A stretch of 64,000 bases of DNA from Streptomyces ferrugineus. Lineage in GTDB: Bacteria > Actinomycetota > Actinomycetes > Streptomycetales > Streptomycetaceae. Position numbers and translations under genes: made by a program. Below the pieces are notes generated by a model. That model did no database searches. It was not told the DNA's origin and worked only from the letters and a program-made list of their open reading frames with translations. The stretch lies in assembly GCF_015160855.1 (NCBI RefSeq), contig NZ_CP063373.1:1-64000 (forward strand), in the 5' to 3' direction. Below, piece after piece: positions 3,478 through 16,560 of the stretch (positions are counted from its first letter, which is position 1; every line of letters starts with the position of its first letter).

Positions 3478-3568
3478 GTAAAGAACGTGTACGGTTCCCT
3501 CTGGTGTGCCGGGAAGTCGGGTCGGCGGTCTGTGACAGAAGTCTTTTCGCCGATCGGGGGTGCGGGTC
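3478..3568 (+). promoter_or_regulatory. Antiporter leader element, copy 1
   Basis: The leader contains GTAAAGAACG (3478-3487) and, 15 nt on, a 25-nt block (3503-3527) starting GGTGTGCCGGGAAGTC that recurs with one mismatch upstream of nhaA at 16427-16451. Two mutually exclusive pairings can be drawn: GCCG (3509-3512) with CGGC (3523-3526), and GGTCGGCG (3520-3527) with CGCCGATC (3548-3555), the latter ending against the GGGGG ribosome site. That is the layout expected of an RNA switch controlling translation; ligand unknown. Confidence 0.6.
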
Positions 3569-4819
3569 ATGGTGCTCGTCGTTGTCTTCGGAGTGGCACT
3601 GCTCATCGCGGTGCTGTTGTCCGGTCTCGCCGCCAGGACCGTCCTGTCGACGTCCCTGCTCTTCCTGGTGGGTGGCGCCCTCGTCAGTGACGGGTTCCTC
3701 GGGCTGATCCACATCACCGAGGACAGCGAGATGGTGTCCGTGACGGCCGACCTCGCGCTGTTCGCGGTGCTGTTCACCGACGGCATGCACGTCTCCTTCC
3801 CGAAGCTGCGGGAGAACTGGCGCAACCCCGCCCGCGCCCTCGGGCTCGGCATGCCGCTCGCGTTCATCGGCATGGCCCTGATCACGCACTTCCTGGTGGG
3901 CCTGGACTGGACGACGTCCTTCCTGGTCGGCGCCGTGCTGGCGCCCACCGACCCGGTGTTCGCCTCGGCCATCGTGGGCCGCAAGGAAGTCCCGGCGAAG
4001 CTGCGGCAGTTGCTGAACGTCGAGAGCGGCATCAACGACGGCCTCGCCCTGCCCGTCGTACTCATCCTGATCGCCGCGGCCGGGCCCACCACCGGACACG
4101 CCGAGGCCGACCTCGGGAAGATCGCGCTGGAGCTGGTCCTGGGACTCGTCTTCGGTGTCGTCCTGCCCTTCGTGGTGATCGAGCTCGTACGCTTCCGGCA
4201 CCTGGGCGCGGAGCCGAAGCTCCAGCCGCTGCTGCCGCTGGCGATCGGCGTGATCCTCTACGCCGCCTGCCACCTGACGCACGCCAACCCCTACCTCGCC
4301 GCGTTCTCGGCCGGAGCCGTGATCACCGCCCGCTCCATCGAGGCGAAGGAGGCGTTCGAGCCGCTGGGCGAGGCGCTGGCCGAACTCGCCAAGTTCGCGG
4401 CGCTGCTGGTGTTCGGCGCGCTGCTGACGCCGCAGCTGTTCGGCGAGCTGTCCCTGGGCGGGTACGCGGCCGTCGTCCTGGCCATCGTGCTGATCCGGCC
4501 CGCCTCGCTGCTGCTGTCGCTGCTGGGCACGCGCTTCACCCGGCAGGAGAAGCTGGTCGCGGCCTGGTTCGGGCCCAAGGGCTTCGCGTCCGTGGTGTAC
4601 GGGCTGCTGGTGCTCCAGGCCGGGATCCCGCAGGGCGAGGAGGCGTTCACCCTCATCGCCGTGTGCATCGCCTTCTCGATCATCGCGCACAGCTCCACCG
4701 ACGTACCGATCGCCCGCCTCTTCCACGTCGAGGACCTCGCCGGTGTCGACGGCACCACTCCGGCACCGCGCACCGCCGCGGCGGAGGCGCCCGCCGTACC
4801 GGCACCTGACCGGGGGTAA
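3569..4819 (+). CDS. CPA1-family cation:proton antiporter
   Basis: A 416-residue membrane protein with about 11-12 hydrophobic segments. Landmarks of Na+/H+ exchangers of the CPA1 family are present: GAVLAPTDPVFASAIV near residue 135 and NVESGINDGLALPVVLI near 155, carrying the conserved acidic residues of the ion path, and WFGPKGFASVVYGLLVL near 335. It should exchange Na+ or K+ for H+ at the plasma membrane. The start ATG at 3569 has GGGGG 8 nt upstream; GTG at 3560 falls inside that ribosome site. The next gene, a two-RCK protein, starts 9 bp after the stop, so the two probably form one ion-homeostasis operon. The upstream leader is shared with nhaA. Confidence 0.88.
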   Translation: MVLVVVFGVALLIAVLLSGLAARTVLSTSLLFLVGGALVSDGFLGLIHITEDSEMVSVTADLALFAVLFTDGMHVSFPKLRENWRNPARALGLGMPLAFIGMALITHFLVGLDWTTSFLVGAVLAPTDPVFASAIVGRKEVPAKLRQLLNVESGINDGLALPVVLILIAAAGPTTGHAEADLGKIALELVLGLVFGVVLPFVVIELVRFRHLGAEPKLQPLLPLAIGVILYAACHLTHANPYLAAFSAGAVITARSIEAKEAFEPLGEALAELAKFAALLVFGALLTPQLFGELSLGGYAAVVLAIVLIRPASLLLSLLGTRFTRQEKLVAAWFGPKGFASVVYGLLVLQAGIPQGEEAFTLIAVCIAFSIIAHSSTDVPIARLFHVEDLAGVDGTTPAPRTAAAEAPAVPAPDRG

Positions 4820-4828
4820 CACAACCGT

Positions 4829-6781
4829 ATGGCCCTCATCCCTCAGCCGGCGCGCGGGTTCCCGCAGCCCGGTCACATGATCGTCTGCGGTGACGACGCG
4901 CTCGCCGAACGGCTGGCCGCCGAACTCACCACGGTCTACCGGGAGCGGGTGACCCTCGTCCTACCGCCCGCGCGGCACGCCGATGCCGCCGGGCGGGCCC
5001 GGTCCTGGCCCCTGTCCGGCCCGGTGCAGGCGCTGGTGAGCCGGATGGGAGGGCCGTCCGCCGACGACGGAGCCGACCGGCCCCGAGTGCTGGCGGCCCA
5101 CGAGCTGGACGAGGCCGTCATGGCCGAAGCCGGTGTGCGCGAGGCCGCCGCGATGGCGCTGGTCCATGACGACGACGAGACCAACATCCGTGCCGCGCTG
5201 GCCGCCCGCCGCCTCAACCCGCGTCTGCGCCTGGTCATCCGGCTCTACAACCGCAAGCTCGGCCAGCACCTCGAGGAACTCCTCGACCAGGCCGCCGCGC
5301 TCGCCGTGCCCGGCCTGGACCCGGAGGCGCTGGACACCTCCACGACCGTCCTGTCGGACGCGGACACGGCCGCCCCGGCGCTCGCGGCCACCGCCATCGC
5401 CGGCACCAGCAAAGTCGTCCAGGCCGACGGGCTGCTGCTGCGCGCCGCGGAACGCACCCCGCCCCGCGCCGGCCAGGTCGCCGACCCCGGTCTGTGCACC
5501 CTCGCCCTGCTGTCGTCGACCACGAACGACCCGTCCGGCGAGGAGGGCTCCGACGCCAGCGGCGAGGCGGGGCCGACGCTGCTGCCCGACGAGGACACGG
5601 TGGCCGCCGCCACCGGACGCGGCACCGTGGTCCTGCAGGCCGTCACGCACACCGGCCCGCCGGAGCCGGCGGGGCGGCTGGCGGGCCGGGGAGCGCCGCT
5701 GGGCTCGCTGTTCTCGCGCCGGCTGCGCTGGTCGCTGGCCGGGTTGCTGTCCTGCGTGCTGGGCCTGGCCGTCGCCACCTGGCTGACCACCGAGAACGCC
5801 CATCCGCTGCACGCCGGATACATCACCCTGCTCGACCTCTTCGCGATCAACGACCCGGCGACCGACGACCCCACCGCCCGCCAGGTGCTCCAACTCCTCG
5901 CCGGACTCGCCGGGTTGCTGCTCCTGCCGGTGCTGCTGGCGGCGGTCCTGGAGGCGCTCGGCACCTTCCGCACCGCCTCCGCGCTGCGCCGCCCGCCGCG
6001 CGGCCTGTCCGGCCATGTCGTCCTGCTCGGCCTCGGCAAGGTCGGCACCCGGGTGCTGTCCCGGCTGAAGGAACTCGGCATCCCCGTGGTGTGCGTGGAG
6101 GAGGACCCCGAGGCGCGGGGCATCCCGCTCGCCCGCCGGCTGCGCGTGCCCACGGTCATCGGGGACGTCACCCAGGAAGGCGTCCTGGAGGCCGCCAAGG
6201 TCCATCGCGCGCATGCCCTGCTCGCCCTCACCAGCAGCGACACCACCAACCTGGAAGCCGTGCTGTACGCCCGCTCCGTCGAACCCGGCCTGCGGGTCGC
6301 GCTACGGCTGTACGACGACGACTTCGCCACCGCCGTCCACCGCACCCTGCGCGCCACCCACCCGCAGGCCCTGACCCGCAGCCGCAGCGTCTCCACCCTG
6401 GCCGCGCCCGCCTTCGCCGGGGCCATGATGGGCCGCCAGATCCTCGGCGCCATCCCCGTCGAGCGGCGCGTGCTGCTCTTCGCCGCCCTCGACGTCGCCG
6501 GCCATCCCCAGCTCGAAGGCCGCACCCTCGCCGAGTCGTTCCGCGCCGGCGCCTGGCGCGTCCTGGCCCTCGACACCTCCGCACCGGACGAGCGGATGCC
6601 CGACCTGTCCGCCACCCCCACCCACGACGGCTCCCCCCGACCGACCGGCCTGATCTGGGACATCCACCCCGGCTACGTACTGCGCCCCCAGGACCGCGTG
6701 GTCCTCGCCGCGACCCGCCAGGGCTTGGCCGAACTCCTCGGCCGCCACCCGCACCCGAGCCCTCGGCGCGCGGGTTCGTAG
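4829..6781 (+). CDS. Membrane protein with two RCK (TrkA-N) domains
   Basis: 650 residues. Residues about 10-240 form a divergent TrkA-N/RCK domain (GHMIVCGDDALAERLAAELT). Two hydrophobic helices follow at about 285-310 and 350-385. A second RCK domain begins with GHVVLLGLGKVGTRVLSRLK near 390 and includes TVIGDVTQEGVLEAAKV and ALLALTSSDTTNLEA. The order RCK-TM-TM-RCK resembles a K+-channel subunit, but the stretch between the two helices lacks a TVGYG selectivity filter. It therefore may be a regulatory or ion-transport partner of the antiporter just upstream rather than a classical K+ channel (inference). Stop at 6781 faces a repeat-rich convergent intergenic region. Confidence 0.8.
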   Translation: MALIPQPARGFPQPGHMIVCGDDALAERLAAELTTVYRERVTLVLPPARHADAAGRARSWPLSGPVQALVSRMGGPSADDGADRPRVLAAHELDEAVMAEAGVREAAAMALVHDDDETNIRAALAARRLNPRLRLVIRLYNRKLGQHLEELLDQAAALAVPGLDPEALDTSTTVLSDADTAAPALAATAIAGTSKVVQADGLLLRAAERTPPRAGQVADPGLCTLALLSSTTNDPSGEEGSDASGEAGPTLLPDEDTVAAATGRGTVVLQAVTHTGPPEPAGRLAGRGAPLGSLFSRRLRWSLAGLLSCVLGLAVATWLTTENAHPLHAGYITLLDLFAINDPATDDPTARQVLQLLAGLAGLLLLPVLLAAVLEALGTFRTASALRRPPRGLSGHVVLLGLGKVGTRVLSRLKELGIPVVCVEEDPEARGIPLARRLRVPTVIGDVTQEGVLEAAKVHRAHALLALTSSDTTNLEAVLYARSVEPGLRVALRLYDDDFATAVHRTLRATHPQALTRSRSVSTLAAPAFAGAMMGRQILGAIPVERRVLLFAALDVAGHPQLEGRTLAESFRAGAWRVLALDTSAPDERMPDLSATPTHDGSPRPTGLIWDIHPGYVLRPQDRVVLAATRQGLAELLGRHPHPSPRRAGS

Positions 6782-6838
6782 CACACGGGCGCCGCCCACG
6801 CCGCGGGCGGCGGAGCCAACCACGAGGTGCCGGGACAG

Positions 6839-7202
6839 CCCCGGCACCACCGCGAAACACCGCCCCGACGCCCCACGCCCACACCCGCCACGCCGACCGC
6901 AGGCCCGTGGCACGCGGACGACCATCCCCCCATCAGCACTGCCCCCACCCCGGGGCGGGGAGTGCCACAGGGCAACCACCACGCGCCAGCGCCCCGGCAC
7001 CACCGCGAAACACCGTCCCGACGCCCCACGCCCACACCCGCCACGCCGGCCGCAGGCCCGTGGCACGCGGACGACCATCCCCGCATCAGCACTGCCCCCA
7101 CCCCGGGGCGGGGAGTGCCGCAGGGCAACCACCACGCGCCAGCGCCCCGGCACCACCGCGACGCCCCCGCCGCAGGCCCGTGGCACGCGGGCCGCCGCGG
7201 CC
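6839..7202. repeat. 153-bp tandem repeat in a convergent gap
   Basis: Copies start with CCCCGGCACCACCGCGA at 6839, 6992 and 7145, exactly 153 bp apart; the third is shortened by an internal deletion. The first two are nearly identical. The only frames open through it are long antisense-type frames with biased composition, so I treat it as noncoding. It fills the gap between the plus-strand RCK gene and the minus-strand AAA ATPase gene. Confidence 0.85.
6936..7118. terminator. Repeated palindromic hairpins, probable bidirectional terminator
   Basis: Each full repeat unit holds one near-perfect palindrome of 30 bp centred on CCCCGGGG, with GCACT and AGTGC as outer arms (6936-6965 and 7089-7118). 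A third, different hairpin, CCCGTGCC-CC-GGCACGGG, lies at 7211-7228 inside the 3' end of the ATPase gene. Between converging genes these are natural candidates for termination from both sides. Confidence 0.55.
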
Positions 7203-10200
7203 TCAGTGCTGCCCGTGCCCCGGCACGGGGCGTGCCGCATGTCGAGCAGAGGGGTTGACCACGAGGTGTCGGGGGTCGGTGGCGTGGCGGATGGCGGTTT
7301 CGACGGCCGCGACCCGGTCGGCGAGCAGAGCGAGGGCGGCCACCGCGTGGGTGAGGGGGTCGCCCTCGCCACCGCCGAGGGCCTGGGTGCGGACGTACGC
7401 CGCCTTCAGCTCCTGCCAGCGGGCGCCCTGTTCGGCGGTGAGTGTGCCCCGCAGCTCGGCGAGTTTCAGCAGGTTGGCCTCGGCTCCCGTGGTGAGGGTC
7501 TGGGCCTCGGCCCGGTAGTGGTCGTCGATGAGGGCCGCCACTTCCGGCTCGTTCATGACCGGCTGGATCCGCTGGGCGATCTTGTTCATGTTGCGGTACG
7601 AGCCCTGGAGCTGGAACGGCGGCTCCGTGCGGGTGGCGTCCGTCTGGGCGGCGGAGGCGATGTACGCGGCGTTCACGGCGAGCACCGTCGCCCGGGCCGT
7701 GAGCAGATGGCGCAGGACGGACAGGACGCGCTCCAGCTCGGCCGGGGAGTAGGGGTGGGTGAGCCGGTCCGCCCGGGCCGTCGAGTCGCCCTCGGCGAGG
7801 CGGATGAGCAGGTCGAGGTCGGCGCGGTCGCGGCCGGCGAGGGGGGCGAGGACCGGGTTGGCCGTGAGGGCGTTCTCGATGAAGCTCAGTGCGAAAGCGT
7901 GCTGCTTGCCGGTCAGGACGTCGCCGAGGTTCCACACGTCGGCCCGGTTGGCGAGCATGTCGGGGACGTGGAAGCGGCTGCCGGACTCGGTGTACGGGTT
8001 GCCCGCCATGCAGACGGCGAAGCGCTTGCCACGCAGGTCGTAGGTGCGCGGCTCACCGCCCCGTACGCCGTCGACGCGGCGCGTGGCGTCGCACAGCGGG
8101 ATGAACTTCTGCAGCAGCTCGGGCGAGGTGTGCTGGATGTCGTCCAGGTAGAGAAGGGTGTTGTTGCCCGCCTCCAGCGCGAAGTTGACCTTCTCGACCT
8201 CCTGGCGGGCGGTGGCGTTCGGCGCCTCGGCCGGGTCGAGCGAGGTCACGCCGTGCCCCAGCGCCGGACCGCTGATCTTCACCAGCATCAGACCGAGGCG
8301 GTCGGCGACGTAGTCCATGAGGGTCGTCTTGCCGTAGCCGGGCGGGGAGATCAGCAGGAGCAGACCGCCGGTGCCGGTGCGGTTCGACTCCTCGCCCGTG
8401 GAGCCGAGCTGCTTGGCGAGGCTGTCGCCGATCAGCGGAAGGTACACCTCGTCGATGAGCCGGTTGCGGACGAAGGCGGACATCACGCGCGGGCGGTACT
8501 CGTCCAGGCGGAGCCGGGACCGCTCGCCGTCCAGGAGGGTGCCTCGGCGGTGCTGGTAGGCGCGGTGGCCGGGCACGTCCTGGGCGCGGAAGGCGCTGGT
8601 CCGGGCGAGGAGTTCGTCGACGCGGACCGTGAGGGCGCCGCCGGTGATGCGCGGGTGCGTGCCGAGCAGTCCCTCCACGGTCTCGGCCGGCGGGGCGTCC
8701 GACTCGTAGCGGGGCAGGTCGGGGCAGAGTTCCACGGCGACCGCCTCGGCCAGGTCACCGGGGGTGGTGTCGGTGCCGGTGGACGTCGTGTAGGCGGTGA
8801 GCCACGCCTCGACGAGCTGGCGGCGGGCGGCCAGGTCACCGAGGGCGGCGAGGTCCTCGTCGTACGCCGAACGCCCCACCGTACGGCGGAACTTGTCCAG
8901 CAGGGTGCGGGTGCCGGAGCTGACGACGAAGCCGTCGGGGCCGGTGGTCAGCTCGTCGAAGAGATAGTCGGCGGCGGCGCTCGCGCTCTCCGTGCCGATC
9001 GCCCGCGCCAGCTCCTCCCGCAACTCGGCGATCGCGGGTGACAGCCCGAACGTGTCACGGGCGCGGGCCAGGGACACCGCACGCCGCCGCCAGTCCTGCC
9101 GGGCCTCGGCCGTCGTCCCGTGCGCCCAGAACAGCTGGGCGGCGGCACGGGCCCCCGGCTCATGGCGGAGCAACCCCGCACCCTCGTGCAGCCGCAGCAA
9201 AGCCGTGAGGATCAGGGTGGCGTCGTGGTCGTGGACGCCGCGCTCGTAGCCCTCGTCGTACGCCTCCTCCGCCGCTCTGCGGACGAAGGCGGGCAGGTCG
9301 TCGCTCTGCGCGAGCACCGCCGGACCGTGCTCGTCGAGCAGGCGGGCGGCGAGGTGTTCGGCGCGGTAGACCTCGGGCGACTCGGACGGCAGGAGCCGGT
9401 CCCAGTAGGGGCGGGTGGTCAAGAAGTCCGGGTCGGTGACGGGGGCGCGGTAGTCGGTGCCCGTCACCGCGAAGGCCAGTGCGTCGCCCTGGGGGACCAG
9501 GGTGAGGTCGAGGGGCTGGGTGTTGACGGCGAAGCGGTGGTTGCCCAGGCGCAGGGTGCGGCCGTCGTCGGCGTACAGGTCGGTGCGGTCGCGCAGGGCG
9601 CGGGCCGCTTCCTGGCGGACCGCGTCCAGGCGGCCGTCCAGCTCCTCCGCGCGCACCTGGTCGCCGAGTTCGCGCAGCTCCCCGGCGATACGGCGCACCT
9701 TGGCGGGCATCGGGTCGGAGGTGAAGTACGTGGCGACGGCGTCCGCGTCGGCGAGCGTGGCGGAGCGCCGGGTCACCGTCCGCAGGACGCGGGCCGCGGA
9801 GTCGGCGAGGCGTTCGGCGCGGCGGGCGCGGGCGTCGGCGAGGGTCTGCTTGCGGGCGGAGAGCGCCTCGTGGATCTCGTCGCGCTTGTCGGCGAGCGCG
9901 ACGAGGAAGTCGTCGAACTCGGCGAACCGGGACTCCAGGTTCTCCACCTGGACCAGGAGGCGGGCGAGCTGCTCGTCGCACGCGTCCGGGCTGTCGGCCA
10001 CCGCGAGCGCGGCCGTGACCGCCTGGCCAAGCAGCGCCATCTCGGCGGCGAACCCGGCCCGGCTCTCCCCGTCGAGGAGGGCCCGGCGGCGGGAGTCCAC
10101 AACGGCGCGGGCCCGGTTGACGGCGCCGAGGACCTCGGCGATGCGCTCCAGCACGGAGGTGCGGACCGTGGCGTCGCCGATGTCGAGCCCGGCGACCACC

Positions 10201-12119
10201 TCGGTCACCGCGCCCATGGCGTCGGCGAGTTCGTCGAGACGGGCCGCCAGGGGCGCGGCCTCGGCGACGGTGGTGATCGCCTCGGCGTCGGCGACGAGCC
10301 GCTCGACGTCCGCGTGGTGGCCGGCGAAGGCGTCCTCGCGCGCCAGGTGGGCCACCGCCCGCTGCCCGAAGTCGGCCAGGTCGGCCTCGGTGTCGGTGGC
10401 GAGCGCGTCGATGCGGGCGGTGTCCGCGTACCGCATCTCCTTGAGCGTCAGCAGATGCCCCTGCGCCTGGCGGAGTTCGGTCAGCCCGCTCACCCAGGCG
10501 GCGGCCCCGCGTGGCGCCTCACCGCGCAGGCGGCGTACCACCGTGGCGAGGCGGGCGGCGGTCGTCTCGAGCGCGTCGGCCGCCTGCCGGGTCAGGGTCT
10601 GGACGGTCTCGAACTCGGCCAGCACCTGCTCGGCGGTGGCCCGCACCTGCGTCAGCGGCGTGTGCAGATCGCCGAGTTCGGGCTCGGCGAGCCAGTGGTG
10701 GGTGTCGGCCGCCCGGACGCAGGCGGCCAGCAGCGCCTCGTACATCTCGCTCGTCGGCGTGGTCTCGGCCGCGGCGCGCGTGAGGGAGAGGCAGTCGGAG
10801 ATGCCCCGGACGAGGTCGGCGTTGCCGACGCGGGCCAGCGGTCCGGTGCCGGTGGTCCGGGCGGCGGCGTGGGTGTCGGAGACGTACGGGGAGTTCCACC
10901 GCTGGATCGGGTGGACGCGCTGCGGCTCGTCGCTGCCGGAACGCAGCACCATCAGCGTGCCGTCGTCGAAGAGCGCCCAGCCGTGGCAGGACAGCGGGTT
11001 GGCGATCTCCTTGCGGATCAGGTTGTACGGCAGCAGCAGGGTGCGGCCCGCCGCGCGCGCGTGGAACGCGAAGAGGACGTCCTCGCCGTTCGGGGAGCGG
11101 ACCTCGCGCTCGAACTCCAGCTCCGCCGTGTCGAGTTCGTACGTCTTGTGGCTGCCGGTGGCCAGGCAGTAGCCCCCGGGGAAGACGACGCCCTGGTCCT
11201 CGGGCAGCCGGCGGCAAGCCTGCCCGATGCCGTCGAGGCGGACGACGGTCCTGGTGAGGGTGTTGAAGACCAGGTGGCGGTGGGCGTCCTCCTTGTACGG
11301 GCGGACGCGCAGCAGGATCAGGGCGCCCACGCGCGCGTACGCGATGTCGGCGTCCGCGAGGGACTGCAGCGGCTCGTCGACCGGCTCGGCGTGGATCCCC
11401 TCCCCCGTCTCGGTGTCGTCCTCGGCCTTGACGGTGAGGGTGCCGCCGAGCGTCTCGACGAAGATCTCGCCCTCGATGGACACGTGCGGGTGGCGGCCCA
11501 GGACGTGGTCCTCGCGGGTCGTCGCGGTCCACGCGAAGTCGTGGGAGGGCGGCAGGACGTGGTCGCGGTCGCCGCGCGCGTCCAGGAAGGCGGCCTGTCC
11601 GTCGTCGGACAGCGACCAGCGCAGGACGCGGATGTCGCCGGGCTTGTCGCCGGTCTGGAAGACGGCCAGCAGCTTGCCCTCGACACGGCGCAACTGCAGG
11701 AGGCGGGCCTGACGGTAGTAGCGGTGCAGGGCGGCGAACTCCCGCAGGAAGTCGGGGTCGTCGAGCAGTCCGGGCACGGCGTCGTCGGGCAGCCGGTTCA
11801 GGTCGCGGTCGTGCAGGGCGAGGACGTCGCCCACGGCGGTCTCGGTCTCCGGCTTCGTACCGAGTGCGATGTTGTAGCCGAACAGCAGCACATCGCCGAC
11901 GGCCACGATGTCGCGGGGCACACCGGCCTGCTCGGTGCGCAGCCGCTCGGTGCCGCCGAGTTCGAGCCGGGTGGAGCCGAACTCCTCGATACGCCGGGCG
12001 TTGAGCGCCTCGGCCCGCCGGGCGAGCTCGGCGGCCTGCGCGGTGAGCCGGTCGCGCAGCACCTCGTAGGTGCCGGTGTCGAGCGCGTCGTGGGTGCCGG
12101 TGTCCAGGCCGGTGGTCAT
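7203..12119 (-). CDS. Giant AAA ATPase with DUF3686-type N-terminal region
   Basis: 1638 residues. The N-terminal ~500 residues (propeller-like, with VLLFGYNIALGTKPETE and SHDFAWT) match what I know as the DUF3686/'DNA repair ATPase' family. Residues about 500-900 are helical, Ala/Glu/Arg-rich and probably coiled coil. An AAA module follows near 1250: Walker A SPPGYGKTT (~1258), Walker B LLYLDDIQH (~1323), and CMAGNPYTESGSRF as a sensor region. It resembles MoxR-like ATPases. It is the last gene of an operon with a flotillin and a YqiJ-like membrane protein, so it may remodel proteins at flotillin membrane domains (inference). ATG 12119 follows GAGAGGGA. The last codons run into a hairpin region at 7211-7228. 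The 'DNA repair' label of the family is not supported by anything seen here. Confidence 0.8.
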   Translation of the reverse strand: MTTGLDTGTHDALDTGTYEVLRDRLTAQAAELARRAEALNARRIEEFGSTRLELGGTERLRTEQAGVPRDIVAVGDVLLFGYNIALGTKPETETAVGDVLALHDRDLNRLPDDAVPGLLDDPDFLREFAALHRYYRQARLLQLRRVEGKLLAVFQTGDKPGDIRVLRWSLSDDGQAAFLDARGDRDHVLPPSHDFAWTATTREDHVLGRHPHVSIEGEIFVETLGGTLTVKAEDDTETGEGIHAEPVDEPLQSLADADIAYARVGALILLRVRPYKEDAHRHLVFNTLTRTVVRLDGIGQACRRLPEDQGVVFPGGYCLATGSHKTYELDTAELEFEREVRSPNGEDVLFAFHARAAGRTLLLPYNLIRKEIANPLSCHGWALFDDGTLMVLRSGSDEPQRVHPIQRWNSPYVSDTHAAARTTGTGPLARVGNADLVRGISDCLSLTRAAAETTPTSEMYEALLAACVRAADTHHWLAEPELGDLHTPLTQVRATAEQVLAEFETVQTLTRQAADALETTAARLATVVRRLRGEAPRGAAAWVSGLTELRQAQGHLLTLKEMRYADTARIDALATDTEADLADFGQRAVAHLAREDAFAGHHADVERLVADAEAITTVAEAAPLAARLDELADAMGAVTEVVAGLDIGDATVRTSVLERIAEVLGAVNRARAVVDSRRRALLDGESRAGFAAEMALLGQAVTAALAVADSPDACDEQLARLLVQVENLESRFAEFDDFLVALADKRDEIHEALSARKQTLADARARRAERLADSAARVLRTVTRRSATLADADAVATYFTSDPMPAKVRRIAGELRELGDQVRAEELDGRLDAVRQEAARALRDRTDLYADDGRTLRLGNHRFAVNTQPLDLTLVPQGDALAFAVTGTDYRAPVTDPDFLTTRPYWDRLLPSESPEVYRAEHLAARLLDEHGPAVLAQSDDLPAFVRRAAEEAYDEGYERGVHDHDATLILTALLRLHEGAGLLRHEPGARAAAQLFWAHGTTAEARQDWRRRAVSLARARDTFGLSPAIAELREELARAIGTESASAAADYLFDELTTGPDGFVVSSGTRTLLDKFRRTVGRSAYDEDLAALGDLAARRQLVEAWLTAYTTSTGTDTTPGDLAEAVAVELCPDLPRYESDAPPAETVEGLLGTHPRITGGALTVRVDELLARTSAFRAQDVPGHRAYQHRRGTLLDGERSRLRLDEYRPRVMSAFVRNRLIDEVYLPLIGDSLAKQLGSTGEESNRTGTGGLLLLISPPGYGKTTLMDYVADRLGLMLVKISGPALGHGVTSLDPAEAPNATARQEVEKVNFALEAGNNTLLYLDDIQHTSPELLQKFIPLCDATRRVDGVRGGEPRTYDLRGKRFAVCMAGNPYTESGSRFHVPDMLANRADVWNLGDVLTGKQHAFALSFIENALTANPVLAPLAGRDRADLDLLIRLAEGDSTARADRLTHPYSPAELERVLSVLRHLLTARATVLAVNAAYIASAAQTDATRTEPPFQLQGSYRNMNKIAQRIQPVMNEPEVAALIDDHYRAEAQTLTTGAEANLLKLAELRGTLTAEQGARWQELKAAYVRTQALGGGEGDPLTHAVAALALLADRVAAVETAIRHATDPRHLVVNPSARHAARPVPGHGQH

Positions 12120-12162
12120 GGGTCCCTCTCAAGAAGTCGGTCGCTTTCCCGGCAGGAAAGGA

Positions 12163-12208
12163 CGCGGTCCGGAGCTGCCGTCCCCTCGTGCGGCAGCTCC
12201 GGACCGCG
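12163..12208 (-). terminator. Perfect 18-bp hairpin between flotillin and ATPase genes
   Basis: CGCGGTCCGGAGCTGCCG at 12163-12180 pairs perfectly with 12191-12208 across a 10-nt loop. It lies in the 109-bp gap inside the operon, so it can lower expression of the ATPase relative to the flotillin or protect the upstream mRNA. Confidence 0.7.
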
Positions 12209-12228
12209 GGTCTGTGGGCCCGGGTCGG

Positions 12229-14262
12229 TCAGCCCTTGGCGCTGCCGTTGAGCGTCGTCAGCGGGGTGTCGGCGAGGCCCAGCTCGCCGGCCTTGTCGAG
12301 CAGTTGCTTCACCTGCCCGGCGTTGCCGCCACCGCCGTTCATCAGCTTCATCAGCAGCGCGGACACGGTCAGGTTCTGCACGTCGGCCGTGGACACCGAG
12401 CCGAGGACCCGGCTGAGGTCGTCCGTGAAGCTCGACGTGCCGTCCAGCCAGGGCCCCGCCAGCGCCTGCGCGGTCTCGGAGTGCTGCACGAAGCCGTCGA
12501 CGCCCTTGCCGAGCGCGATGGAGGACACCAGCCGGTCGAAGAAGACCGACTCGCCGCCGACGATGTTGATGTCGGCGCTCTCCAGCCCGGTGGCCAGCAC
12601 CGTGGCCTGCGCCTCGGCGACCTGCCGCTGCACGTCGAGGCCGGCGAGCCGGATGTCCTTCTCGGCCTCCAGGCGCAGCCGGTACTCCTCGTGCGTGCGG
12701 GACGCCTCGTCGAGGGCGGCCATCGCGGCGGCCTTCTCGGTGAGACCGGCGGCCTCGGCCTTCAGCTTCTCGCCGATGGCCGCCGCCTCGGCGAGCGCCT
12801 TGGCCCTGGCGCCCTCGGCCTCGGCCAGCATGCGCGCCTGCGTCGCCTCGGCCTCCGCACGGCCGGCCTTCTCGATGACCTCGGCCTCCTTGTCCCGGAC
12901 CTGGACGGTGGCCAGCCCCTCGGCGGCGGACTCGGCCTGGACGCCCTCGGCGAGCCGCAGCTTGGCCTGGGCGTCGAGGTCGGCGCTCTTCAGCCGGGCC
13001 TCGGCGAGGGTGAGTTCCTCGGCGGCGCGGTGCACGGCGGCCTGCTCGGCGGCCTCCGCGGCCTTGATGTCCTTGACCAGCTTCTCCTGCGCCTCGGCCT
13101 CGGCGGCGATGATGACGGCCTGACGCTCGCGCTCGGCCTCCTCGACGGCGCGCAGCCGCTTGATGGACTCCTCCTGCTCGGCGACCGTACGGTCCACGGC
13201 GACCCGCTCGCGCACGACCTCGGCGATCGCCCGCTTCTCCCCCTCGACCTCCTTCTCGGCGGCGATCCGCGTCAGCTCGGTCTCCCGCTCCCGGGCGATG
13301 ACCTCCAGGAGGCGGTCCTTCTCGATGCGCTCGTTCTCGACGGCGATGACCCGCTCGCGGTTCTTCGCGGCGACGGCGACCTCACGGGCCTGGTTCTCAC
13401 GCTGGACGCCGAGCTGCTCCTCGGTGCGCAGGAACGCGCCCTGCGCCCGCAGCCGCTCCTCCTCCACCACCCGCGCGGTCTCGGCCTCCTCGCGGGCCCG
13501 TACGGTCTCGATCTCGCGGCGCTGCTTGATCTCGGCGTCGGCCTGCCGACGCTCCAGCTCCAGGATGGCCTCGCGGGCGTCGACGTTCTGCCGGGTGATC
13601 TCCTTCTCCTCGGTGCGCTGGAACTCGTTGGTGCGCACGTGCTCGATCGCCGTCAGCTCGGTGATCTTGCGGATGCCCTGGGCGTCGAGGACGTTGGCCG
13701 GGTCGAGCTGGGCCAGCGGCGTCTGCTCCAGGTAGTCGATCGCCGCGTCCTCCAGGTGGTAGCCGCTGAGGTCGACGCCGATGACCTCGATGATCCGGTA
13801 CCTGAGCTCCTCGCGCTTGGTGTAGAGGTCGGTGAAGTCCATCTGCTTGCCGACGGTCTTCAGCGCCTCGGAGAACTTCGCGTGGAACAGCTCCTGCAGC
13901 GTCTCGCGATGGCTCGCCCGCGCCGTGCCGACCGCCTGGGCGACCTTGACGACGTCCTCCACGGTCTTGTTGACCTTGACGAAGAACGAGATCCGGATGT
14001 CGGCGCGGATGTTGTCCCGGCAGATCAGCCCTTCCTTGCCGGCCCGGGTGATCTCGATGGTCTTCACCGAGATGTCCATCACCTCGGCCTTGTGCAGCAC
14101 CGGCAGGACGACCTGCCCGGTGAAGGTCACGTCGACCTTGCGCATCTTGGAGACGATCAGCGCCTTGCCCTGCTCCACCTTGCGGAACAGCCGGGAGACG
14201 ACGAGTACGGCGATCAGGCAGAGGGCGACGAGCACGCCGATGCCCACGGTCATGGCAATCAT
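12229..14262 (-). CDS. Flotillin/SPFH-domain membrane protein (YqiK-like)
   Basis: 677 residues. One N-terminal membrane helix (about 5-25) is followed by an SPFH/band-7 domain (VEQGKALIVSKMRKVDVTF..., IDYLEQTPLAQLDPANVLDA near 175) and a very long Glu/Ala/Arg-rich coiled coil (about 200-560). The C-terminal region has LESADINIVGGESVFFDRLV, typical of flotillins. Such proteins form membrane microdomains on the inner leaflet. The arrangement with a YqiJ-like small membrane gene upstream is as in E. coli yqiJ-yqiK. Start ATG at 14262 has AAGGA about 8 nt upstream. Downstream lie an 18-bp hairpin and the giant ATPase. Confidence 0.9.
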   Translation of the reverse strand: MIAMTVGIGVLVALCLIAVLVVSRLFRKVEQGKALIVSKMRKVDVTFTGQVVLPVLHKAEVMDISVKTIEITRAGKEGLICRDNIRADIRISFFVKVNKTVEDVVKVAQAVGTARASHRETLQELFHAKFSEALKTVGKQMDFTDLYTKREELRYRIIEVIGVDLSGYHLEDAAIDYLEQTPLAQLDPANVLDAQGIRKITELTAIEHVRTNEFQRTEEKEITRQNVDAREAILELERRQADAEIKQRREIETVRAREEAETARVVEEERLRAQGAFLRTEEQLGVQRENQAREVAVAAKNRERVIAVENERIEKDRLLEVIARERETELTRIAAEKEVEGEKRAIAEVVRERVAVDRTVAEQEESIKRLRAVEEAERERQAVIIAAEAEAQEKLVKDIKAAEAAEQAAVHRAAEELTLAEARLKSADLDAQAKLRLAEGVQAESAAEGLATVQVRDKEAEVIEKAGRAEAEATQARMLAEAEGARAKALAEAAAIGEKLKAEAAGLTEKAAAMAALDEASRTHEEYRLRLEAEKDIRLAGLDVQRQVAEAQATVLATGLESADINIVGGESVFFDRLVSSIALGKGVDGFVQHSETAQALAGPWLDGTSSFTDDLSRVLGSVSTADVQNLTVSALLMKLMNGGGGNAGQVKQLLDKAGELGLADTPLTTLNGSAKG

Positions 14263-14350
14263 CAGTGAGGTCCTTGGCAGGTAGGGAGGGTGTGAGCCCC
14301 CTCAGGGCTGGGAGAAGTCGCGCGTCGAGCGGCGCGGTCGCTCAGGTCGC

Positions 14351-14740
14351 TCAGGCCGTCGTCCGGGACGGCCCGCGTTCATCGGGGAAGAGCCGATGCA
14401 GCGGCCGTACCAGCAGTTGGGTCGCGCACCAGGCGGCCACCGCCGCGGCGACGGGAACCACGAGTCCGGTCAGGATGCGCGCCGCTCCGGAGGAGACGAC
14501 CGGTTCGATCAGGAGGTCGGCGCCGAGACTGGCGGACCAGGCGAGCGCCGTCAGCACCGAGAACGCGACCGCGACCGGCACTCCCCCCAGGCCCCAGGCA
14601 TCGGCGTCCACGTCCTCGTCGAAGCAGTCGGAGCCGGTGGCGCCCACGGCGACGAGCAGCCAGAAGCCGGCGACGACGACCAGGGCGACGGTGAAGAAGA
14701 AGGTCGGGAAGCCGGTGGCGGCTTCGACGAACGTCCGCAT
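14351..14740 (-). CDS. Small membrane protein, YqiJ/NfeD-like N-terminal part
   Basis: 129 residues with three hydrophobic helices. The start, FVEAATGFPTFFFTVALVVV followed by a conserved Asp-rich stretch (DCFDEDVDADAWG), resembles the membrane part of YqiJ, the OB-fold partner protein of flotillins. The usual C-terminal OB-fold domain is absent: the protein ends about 20 residues after its last helix. ATG 14740 is chosen over longer frames because GGGGGG lies just upstream and the helix follows directly. It is the first gene of the flotillin operon, 88 bp before the flotillin start. Confidence 0.65.
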   Translation of the reverse strand: MRTFVEAATGFPTFFFTVALVVVAGFWLLVAVGATGSDCFDEDVDADAWGLGGVPVAVAFSVLTALAWSASLGADLLIEPVVSSGAARILTGLVVPVAAAVAAWCATQLLVRPLHRLFPDERGPSRTTA

Positions 14741-15044
14741 TCCCGACCCCCCGATCATCCTGTCCGTAACGGCGGCGGCACGTCCTCCGGGCCCCGATGC
14801 AGTCACCTGCCGGTGCCCGGCATCGGGGCCGTCCCGCGTGCTCCCCTCGATCCTTATCCTGCCGCCCCGAGGGCCTCGTCGCATTGCCGCATTCCGGCAG
14901 TCTTCGCCTCCCCCTCCATGCCGGACTGCGTAAGGAAGGCGTCAAGACTCACGCCAGGACTCGGGTCAGGACTCAGGTCAGGACCCATGTCAGGACCCGT
15001 GCCAGGACCCGTGTCAGGACTCATGTCAGGACGCCGCCGGACCG
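14741..15044. other. Intergenic region holding a 12-bp tandem repeat
   Basis: No gene is supported between the nhaA stop and the YqiJ-like start. About a third of the gap is the 12-bp repeat listed separately at 14941-15036; the promoter of the flotillin operon should lie in 14741-14900. Confidence 0.6.
14941..15036. repeat. Eight-copy 12-bp tandem repeat
   Basis: Eight back-to-back units of consensus GTCAGGACyCrT lie directly downstream of the nhaA stop codon. The period is a multiple of three, so open frames cross it on both strands (T-R-V-R-T-H-V-R type or S-P-D-T-G-P type), but neither has a start with a ribosome site. Confidence 0.85.
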
Positions 15045-16376
15045 TCAGCCGGCCGCCCTGTCCTGCCGTTCGTCCACCGCGGTCGATTCCCCGGCGTCCT
15101 GCTGGTAGATGTCGGGAATGCCGTCGGCGTCGGCGTCGACGGTCTCCTTCTCGTACAGGACCCGGTAGACCCGGTTGCGGCGGCGCAGCAGTACGGCGGC
15201 GAGGAGTGCGGAGGTCAGGGAGCCGACGAGGACGGCGGCCTTGACGTGCTCGATCTGGGTGGCGCCGGAGAAGGAGAGGTCGCCGATGAGCAGGGCGACC
15301 GTGAAGCCGATACCGGCCAGTACGGCCAGCGCGAAGACGTCGGCCCAGGCCAGATCGGGGTTGAGCCGGGCGCGGGTGAAGCGGACCGCGAGGTAGGTGC
15401 CGCCGAAGACGCCCACGGTCTTGCCGAGCACCAGGCCCAGGACCACACCGAGCAGCTCCGCGGAGGTGAACACCTCGCGCAGGGCACTCGCGGAGACGCC
15501 GACGCCGGCGGCGAACAGGGCGAACAGCGGGACGGCGATGCCCGCGGACAGGGGGTGCAGAAGGTGTCCCGTGCGCTCGCCCGGCGACTCCTTCTCGCCC
15601 TTGTCGCGGGTGGCGCGCAGGATCAGGCCCATGGCGACGCCGGCCACGGTGGCGTGGACACCGCCGTTGTACATCAGCGCCCAGGTCGTGATCCCGAGGG
15701 GCACGTACCACCACCAGCCGGTCACCCGCATCCGCTGGAGCAGATAGAAGACGACCAGCCCCGCGAAGGCTCCCGCCAGCGCGAACAGGTTGAGATCGTC
15801 GGTGAAGAAGACGGCGATGACCAGGATCGCGCCGAGGTCGTCGACCACGGCCAGGGTGAGCAGGAAGGCCCGCAGCGCGGCGGGCAGGTGGGTGGACAGG
15901 ACCGCGAGGACGGCGAGCGCGAAGGCGATGTCGGTGGCCATCGGCACCGCCCATCCACTCAGGCTGCCGCCGCCGGAGCCCGCGGTCGCCACGTAGACGG
16001 CGGCGGGCACCGCCATGCCGCACAGGGCGGCGACCACCGGCAGGGTGGCCGTGGCCGGGGTGCGCAACTCGCCGACGACTAGTTCGCGCTTCAGCTCGAT
16101 CCCGGCGACCAGGAAGAAGACGGTCAGCAGCCCGTCCGCGGTCCAGTGGCCGACCGAGAGGTCCAGGCCGAGGTCCGGTATGCCGAAGTGGAAGTCGCGT
16201 ATTCGCTCATAGGAGTCCGCGATGGGACTGTTCGCCCAGATCAGGGCCACCACCGCGGCGACCAGCAGGACCAGGCCACCGACCGTCTCCGTCCGCAGGG
16301 CCCGGGTGACCTCCTGCCGCTCGGGGAGCGGGAGCAACCCGAGGAAGTAGGAGCGGGGACGCGGGGCACCGACCAT
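15045..16376 (-). CDS. nhaA: Na+/H+ antiporter NhaA
   Basis: 443 residues, eleven to twelve membrane helices. NhaA hallmarks are clear: FFLVAGIELKRELVVGEL, PMATDIAFALAVLAV, and LAVVDDLGAILVIAVFFT with the paired Asp residues of the Na+/H+ site, then NPDLAWADVFALAVLAGIGF near the end. It expels Na+ or Li+ in exchange for protons. The C-terminal tail (DADADGIPDIYQQDAGES) resembles a Ca-binding dockerin-like Asp loop but is short. ATG 16376 has GGAGG 9 nt upstream. The mRNA leader (16377-16475) carries the element shared with the CPA1 antiporter at 3569. A 12-bp tandem repeat follows the stop. Confidence 0.93.
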   Translation of the reverse strand: MVGAPRPRSYFLGLLPLPERQEVTRALRTETVGGLVLLVAAVVALIWANSPIADSYERIRDFHFGIPDLGLDLSVGHWTADGLLTVFFLVAGIELKRELVVGELRTPATATLPVVAALCGMAVPAAVYVATAGSGGGSLSGWAVPMATDIAFALAVLAVLSTHLPAALRAFLLTLAVVDDLGAILVIAVFFTDDLNLFALAGAFAGLVVFYLLQRMRVTGWWWYVPLGITTWALMYNGGVHATVAGVAMGLILRATRDKGEKESPGERTGHLLHPLSAGIAVPLFALFAAGVGVSASALREVFTSAELLGVVLGLVLGKTVGVFGGTYLAVRFTRARLNPDLAWADVFALAVLAGIGFTVALLIGDLSFSGATQIEHVKAAVLVGSLTSALLAAVLLRRRNRVYRVLYEKETVDADADGIPDIYQQDAGESTAVDERQDRAAG

Positions 16377-16475
16377 GACAGCCAACCTCCGGGCAGCGAC
16401 GACAGCGGGCTCAATGCCCCATACCTCGCCGACCAGACTTCCCGGCACACCCCGCGCCTTTGACGCGTTCTTTAC
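16377..16475 (-). promoter_or_regulatory. Antiporter leader element, copy 2 (nhaA)
   Basis: Read on the minus strand: GTAAAGAACG (16475-16466), 14 nt, then the 25-nt block beginning GGTGTGCCGGGAAGTC (16451-16427), then GGGCA/TGCCC able to pair across 16413-16388, and the GGAGG ribosome site. Spacing and sequence match the leader at 3478-3527 although the coding sequences are unrelated in family. Confidence 0.6.
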
Positions 16476-16560
16476 AGCCTATCGGCTGATCGGCCCGGGG
16501 CAGCCGGCCGCAGTATCGATCCCGCAACGGCGTATCGCGCTCCCACCACTGGTTTTCTTC

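Follow-up and report, generated by a model that had tools for sequence, protein, structure and literature searches.

The window analysed here comprises the first 64,000 nucleotides (nt) of contig NZ_CP063373.1 of Streptomyces ferrugineus and contains exactly two copies of a short conserved element, GGnGnGCCGGGAAGnCUGGUCGGC, one in front of a CPA1-type antiporter gene and one in front of nhaA. As given in a preliminary description of this DNA, a 25-nt block at 3503-3527 on the plus strand and 16451-16427 on the minus strand agrees in 24 of 25 bases, the sole difference being T/G at column 17, and the genes behind the two copies encode antiporters of different families (PF00999 for copy 1, PF06965 for copy 2). 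The two copies are not a product of chance, because the third-ranking 25-mer of the window already differs from the block by seven mismatches. The features concerned are as follows.

3490..3495, plus strand: TACGGT, likely -10 hexamer of copy 1, its start lying 13 nt 5' of the first G of the element
3503..3526, plus strand: element copy 1, 41.5 bits, stem 3508-3511 with 3523-3526, column 17 being G, not T
3548..3555, plus strand: CGCCGATC, complementary to 3520-3527 (GGTCGGCG) and adjoining the GGGGG ribosome-site candidate at 3556-3560
3569..4819, plus strand: CPA1-type antiporter gene, ATG at 3569, PF00999 (Na_H_Exchanger) at 1e-42
4829..6781, plus strand: gene of a TrkA_N (RCK) protein, PF02254, directly 3' of the CPA1 gene
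15045..16376, minus strand: nhaA, ATG at 16376, PF06965 at 6.8e-131, TIGR00773 above cut-off
16388..16398, minus strand: CGCTGCCCGGA, partner of the element's 3' half, overlapping the GGAGG ribosome-site candidate at 16390-16386
16428..16451, minus strand: element copy 2, 45.7 bits, stem 16446-16443 with 16431-16428
16476..16481, minus strand: TAGGCT, candidate -10 of copy 2, starting 30 nt before the element, which would thus be internal to this leader

The element is almost certainly a real RNA element distributed across the phylum. A 21-nt pattern with at most one mismatch matched 197 of the 199 genomes of the genus (reversed-pattern control: 0), and a 24-nt pattern with up to three mismatches matched 100 of 148 genomes of the class, own genus included (reversed control: 0), a few of the three-mismatch matches being chance. 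A covariance model, R1, found the element in 57 of the 198 genomes in a phylum-wide sample, which again included its own genus. A scan of 84,980 species genomes returned at least 120 matching stretches; among the matches listed (80 titles), all but two read as actinobacterial, these being L099 (Chloroflexi) and L114 (Ktedonobacteraceae). Moreover, among 30 NhaA loci that were selected by protein only in 45 class genomes, the element is present in 16, with scores of 36-46 bits. Mismatches at the best site number 0 or 1 in these 16 loci and 5 to 8 in the other 14, so the element is either intact or absent. Distinct copies were assembled into a set of 287, leaving out those with more than three mismatches, those lying too close to the end of a locus and seven matches judged to be chance (L206, L207, L208, L210 and L211, with no set gene family downstream and no clear -10; L272 and L273, with no family match). 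The presence of only two copies in the window would also suit a chance similarity or a mobile repeat. The empty reversed-pattern control in the genus and the differing flanks of the 287 copies, 253 of which have a typed same-strand gene within 700 nt, speak against it; together, the genus scan, the class scan and the protein-selected NhaA loci refute this reading, to which we attach a negligible probability.

Among the 16 protein-selected copies, 20 of 24 columns are constant and columns 3, 5, 15 and 17 vary. The 287-copy set shows an agreeing column pattern, in which the constancy of columns 1, 2, 9-14, 16 and 18 exists by construction because the search pattern fixed them. Read as RNA, columns 6-9 pair with columns 21-24 in a 4-base-pair stem, GCCG/CGGC, that closes the 11-nt loop GGAAGnCUGGU; no conserved parts were found beyond this small stem and near-invariant loop. 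The element could also be read as the start of a leaderless upstream open reading frame (ORF), M-C-R-E-V-W-S-A or M-P-G-S-L-V-G, acting by translational coupling, since there is a GTG at the likely start site or close to it and, in copy 2, nhaA shares its frame with the GTG at 16448. However, in the GTG-TGC frame the 16 protein-selected copies show no variation at the third positions (columns 4, 7, 10, 13, 16, 19 and 22), but do vary at column 3, within the start codon, and at columns 5 and 15, where the amino acid is altered; in the GTG-CCG frame, column 5 lies within the start codon and yet is not T in 74 of the 287 copies. This substitution pattern led us to reject a conserved peptide, and coupling through such an ORF is scarcely credible.

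Compensatory changes support the stem. Four genomes, each of a different genus, contain a compensated form, either GUCG/CGAC (G244, G298) or GCUG/CAGC (G287, G336), and each of the four copies is preceded by TAnnnT at 13 nt and followed by a PF06965 gene. They come from two pattern searches of 246 genomes, the first matching six (three judged real, including L205, which has a broken pair; one match in the reversed control) and the second matching four (two judged real). A G-C stem swap at L246 (37.9 bits), kept among the 287, was not counted as a fifth good case because it has no clear -10 and the ORF 314 nt downstream encodes a homologue of a selenium-binding protein. In the 26 seed rows, 99% of the stem cells are paired and four are double changes, a result reached by 0 of 500 shuffles; across all 94 matches from 89 loci (51 distinct rows, chance ones included), 98% are paired with five double changes, again reached by 0 of 500 shuffles, counts that are not probabilities because the rows are related. 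A G.U pair is found in the stem of two copies (L043, L269).

The foot of the stem, columns 5 and 25, is also biased. In the class and phylum loci, U at column 5 is accompanied by G in 39 copies, by A in 2 and by others in 3, C is accompanied by A in 27 and by G in 4, and A is accompanied by G (9) or A (8). The 72 copies with U or C at column 5 and G or A at column 25 thus comprise 39 U.G, 27 C.A, 4 C-G and 2 U-A (Fisher 2e-13, relatedness ignored). An absolute exclusivity of C.A, which was apparent at first, was overturned by the C-G copies. Protonated C.A and U.G are interchangeable wobble pairs, and C.A must have a protonated A to mimic U.G; the C.A copies would consequently have a built-in pH dependence.

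The position of the element relative to the promoter is similarly constrained. In 187 of the 287 copies, a TAnnnT hexamer begins 11-15 nt 5' of the first G, as compared with 10-15 of the 287 in four windows shifted by 10-40 nt. Taking TAnnnT as the -10 hexamer, transcription likely starts at or next to the first G; the hexamer stands at start-site spacing in 80 of 143 nhaA genes, and copy 1 also fits. In such copies the element is thus likely to lie at the start of the transcript, as predicted from these hexamers. The predicted starts are at the block or 5' of it, and the transcription start downstream of the block that the preliminary description had named as refuting an RNA is not what the hexamers predict. 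The conserved leader spacing of that description holds for the distance to the -10, in the same 187 copies, and fails for the distance to the start codon, which is not conserved.

A location at the likely start site in 187 copies, together with a stem that is an inverted repeat at the DNA level, would also agree with a DNA operator bound by a transcription factor just 3' of the -10. Such an operator should combine a fixed promoter position with a symmetric site, whereas the loop is asymmetric and copy 2 keeps the form of the element with its candidate -10 about 30 nt upstream. Both arms have changed together in single copies of G244 and G298, genomes that additionally hold canonical-stem copies elsewhere, which speaks against a DNA-binding protein having co-evolved. 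In addition, complementarity of the 3' half to the ribosome site is a property for which a DNA site has no need. Like the preliminary description, we therefore rank the operator lower, and regard it as very improbable.

This complementarity would connect the element with translation. Calculations were made for 229 of the 287 leaders, the 58 without a clear ribosome site being left out, and their p-values ignore relatedness. The 3' part of the element would form a duplex with the leader just 5' of the start codon at a mean of -10.33 kcal/mol, against -8.40 kcal/mol when shuffled (p 2e-16), with no excess for the four other segments tested. In 83 of these leaders, against 35 in shuffles, CGAYC occurs in the 14 nt preceding the ribosome site. 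Pairing between columns 16-24 and the ribosome-site region is predicted at 0.578, shuffles giving 0.25 (Wilcoxon 3e-28), and exceeds 0.5 in 147 leaders; the 5' part of the element has no excess. In the window, the predicted fold of copy 1 pairs 3520-3527 with 3548-3555, beside GGGGG, and that of copy 2 covers GGAGG; the two competing stems originally noted in copy 1 are recovered in the folding calculations, as predictions. The hairpin stem and the ribosome-site pairing are mutually exclusive in prediction. An alternative pairing that covers the ribosome site, as in the expression platform of a translational riboswitch, is thus predicted, and switching at the ribosome site seems likely to us.

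On the whole, we favour the view that the block belongs to an actinobacterial class of cis-regulatory RNAs acting as a translational switch, off by default and turned on when the hairpin is stabilized. The mRNA would often start with GGnGn, followed by the stem and its loop. By default, the 3' half, CUGGUCGGC, would pair with sequence that overlaps the ribosome site or immediately precedes it, keeping translation low. A trigger stabilizing the small hairpin would withdraw the 3' strand and free the ribosome site, and the ion-homeostasis genes would then be translated. Since sequence alone favours the covered ribosome site, formation of the conserved hairpin must depend on some help, from which we infer an ON switch. 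The trigger, like this direction, is deduced, and is most likely Na+ or cytoplasmic pH, acting directly or via an RNA-binding protein.

Several points weigh against this proposal, beginning with the leaders omitted from the pairing calculations and the relatedness ignored in them. The conserved stem is almost never predicted in full leaders (0.005, against 0.062 in shuffles), and an alternative stem of columns 6-10 with columns 16-20 is also predicted. The 26 seed rows were our choice among 41 distinct cores, and further pair types, one of five pair measures, showed no excess over shuffles. The covariation that the preliminary description had asked for is present, but confined to two stem pairs and to few events, and three copies each have one broken stem pair: L205 (C.A), in front of a PF00999 gene, L271 (C.A), in front of a gene with no Pfam match, and L268 (U.C), in front of a TrkH-like gene. 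Within these bounds (few events, two pairs, three broken-pair copies), the sequences hold a leader RNA structure with covariation support, as a translational riboswitch would. Finally, the other 14 of the 30 protein-selected NhaA loci contain nothing above 16 bits, the element lies in front of ABC transporters, alpha/beta hydrolases, phosphoenolpyruvate (PEP)-synthase-like enzymes and flavin adenine dinucleotide (FAD) monooxygenases as well, and an aptamer of 24 nt would be unusually small.

By tblastn to representatives, 222 of the 287 copies precede ion-transport genes or their regulators: NhaA (143), CPA-type exchangers (41), CitMHS/NhaD-like proteins (16), an APC-like permease (6), Mrp (6), TrkA (3), Na/Ca exchangers (3), SulP (2) and TrkH (2). 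The representatives were typed with Pfam, except the APC-like permease, which had no Pfam match and which may be KimA-like. The other copies precede STAS (5), DUF2254 (5), ABC (5), alpha/beta hydrolase (5), PEP-synthase-like (3) and FAD monooxygenase (2) genes and six single families, 31 being unassigned and 3 too short. Ten proteins of the unassigned set were scanned, with five telling matches (membrane pyrophosphatase, P-type cation ATPase, NfeD-like, Crp-like and selenium-binding protein), one weak TOBE match and four without a match. This census is biased toward what the search patterns find; in the species scan alone, NhaA stands behind 63 of 132 copies, among the matches listed.

The cis-acting RNA of the preliminary description finds support in the compensatory changes, the likely transcript-start position, the sense orientation and the ribosome-site complementarity, while the cation or pH response attributed to it goes no further than fitting the gene set. 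We put sensing of an ion or of pH by the RNA itself at a little under an even chance, with a protein partner as the main rival. According to that rival, the hairpin is the site of a conserved RNA-binding protein reporting a broader stress, and the protein, not the ion, shifts the RNA between its folds. A protein site would be in keeping with the small stem, its near-invariant loop and the finding of no further conserved part, and also with target genes without an obvious cation link; the predominance of ion-transport genes and their regulators, as behind known ion riboswitches, speaks against it, and we consider it rather unlikely. The boldest form of our proposal, in which a 24-nt RNA aptamer at or near mRNA 5' ends senses Na+ or protons directly across the phylum and coordinates at least eight transporter families, is likewise doubtful. 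The proposed switch in general would place many of the Na+/H+, K+/H+ and related transporters of a large phylum, one of importance to medicine and industry, under one RNA signal, and its size and conservation would be unusual for a leader RNA. It also offers a ready experimental handle, since many genes are available in which to test the identical 24 nt.

The comparison with known ion riboswitches suggested at the outset gave no match. The Rfam 15 models, which presumably include one for each of the Na+-I, Li+-I and Li+-II motifs, had no match in the window at gathering score; at E<=5, a Pyrobaculum small RNA model, far below cut-off, was the only match near copy 1 and there was none near copy 2, and no ion riboswitch matched 20 related loci at E<=1. 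By these covariance models, the element does not belong to Na+-I, Li+-I or Li+-II. The c-di-AMP (ydaO) riboswitch, which controls K+ and osmotic genes and is a much larger RNA than the 24-nt element, had no match in the Rfam searches of the window and the 20 related loci either. The Na+-I riboswitch (DUF1646 motif) is a cis-acting leader RNA of Na+/H+ antiporter and sodium genes, through which Na+ activates expression (PMC9337991; PMC9646797). The element resembles it as a leader RNA before cation transporters, but is smaller, with a single short hairpin, whereas Na+-I is described with two helices, P1 and P2, with conserved bases in both; the words ‘Actinobacteria’ and ‘Streptomyces’ do not occur in the main text of PMC9337991. 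The Li+-I and Li+-II riboswitches (nhaA-I and nhaA-II motifs) lead nhaA and activate expression, and most are thought by the authors to work through ribosome-site access (PMC9646797). Cation transporters and ribosome-site control, the latter predicted for the element, are common to the element and the Na+ and Li+ riboswitches; compared by Rfam and by description, the element differs from the Li+ motifs in lacking an Rfam match and in spanning more transporter families. The dauA motif (SRC-36-1) comprises 57 Streptomyces leaders before a STAS gene and forms a three-stem junction that includes the Shine-Dalgarno sequence (Narunsky et al., 2024; PMC11109978). By description, it may overlap a subset of element copies, such as the L033 leader, whose SulP/STAS gene has BicA and DauA as relatives, although it is reported for one gene as a three-stem junction, and the element is one hairpin before many genes. 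The main text of a 2010 motif survey mentions neither nhaA nor antiporter (PMC2864571), and no description of the element was found in open-licence PMC papers. The element appears to be a so far undescribed RNA switch governing salt or acid balance.

The decamer GTAAAGAACG, which the preliminary description had placed in both leaders, does occur exactly twice in the window, at 3478-3487 (plus) and 16475-16466 (minus), but is not a shared part of the leader. It lies 5' of the likely -10 in copy 1 and 3' of the candidate -10 TAGGCT in copy 2, and with at most one mismatch it stands within 60 nt of only 24 of the 287 elements, at several distances. It was consequently rejected as part of the element, and is a promoter-region sequence outside it.

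In the whole genome (9.96 Mb, one contig) there are four copies of the element, the other two leading a SulP/STAS gene (L033) and a second nhaA (L034). The SulP/STAS transporter led by the copy at L033:2001-2021 (G000:C1:4799836) has BicA and DauA as its closest NCBIfam models, below cut-off. For the CPA1-type protein, the top NCBIfam model is a K+/H+ antiporter, with a score below the model cut-off, and the mechanical ORF opens earlier than the ATG, at GTG 3560. Automatic annotation may similarly start nhaA inside copy 2, because of its in-frame GTG.

Among the less expected targets, DUF2254 membrane proteins of unknown function are led by the element at L048, L063, L248, L249 and L250, which suggests a role for them in ion balance. 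An alpha/beta hydrolase family of unknown role follows it at L086, L090, L115, L269 and L277 (typed with Pfam at L086, by similarity at the rest). The PEP-synthase-like proteins at L078, L094 and L103, of which only L078 was typed, resemble rifamycin phosphotransferase, below cut-off; together with the ABC and FAD-monooxygenase targets, they hint at a broader signal. In some genomes, three elements lie within about 5 kb (L035 in G187, L038 and L039 in G066), around CPA1, nhaA and STAS or small unknown genes. Lastly, a small GC-rich hairpin (CGCG..CGCG or GCGUC..GACGC) appears, by eye, to lie 5' of the element in some Streptomyces nhaA copies, for example at 16452-16475 (minus strand), L172, L126 and L118.

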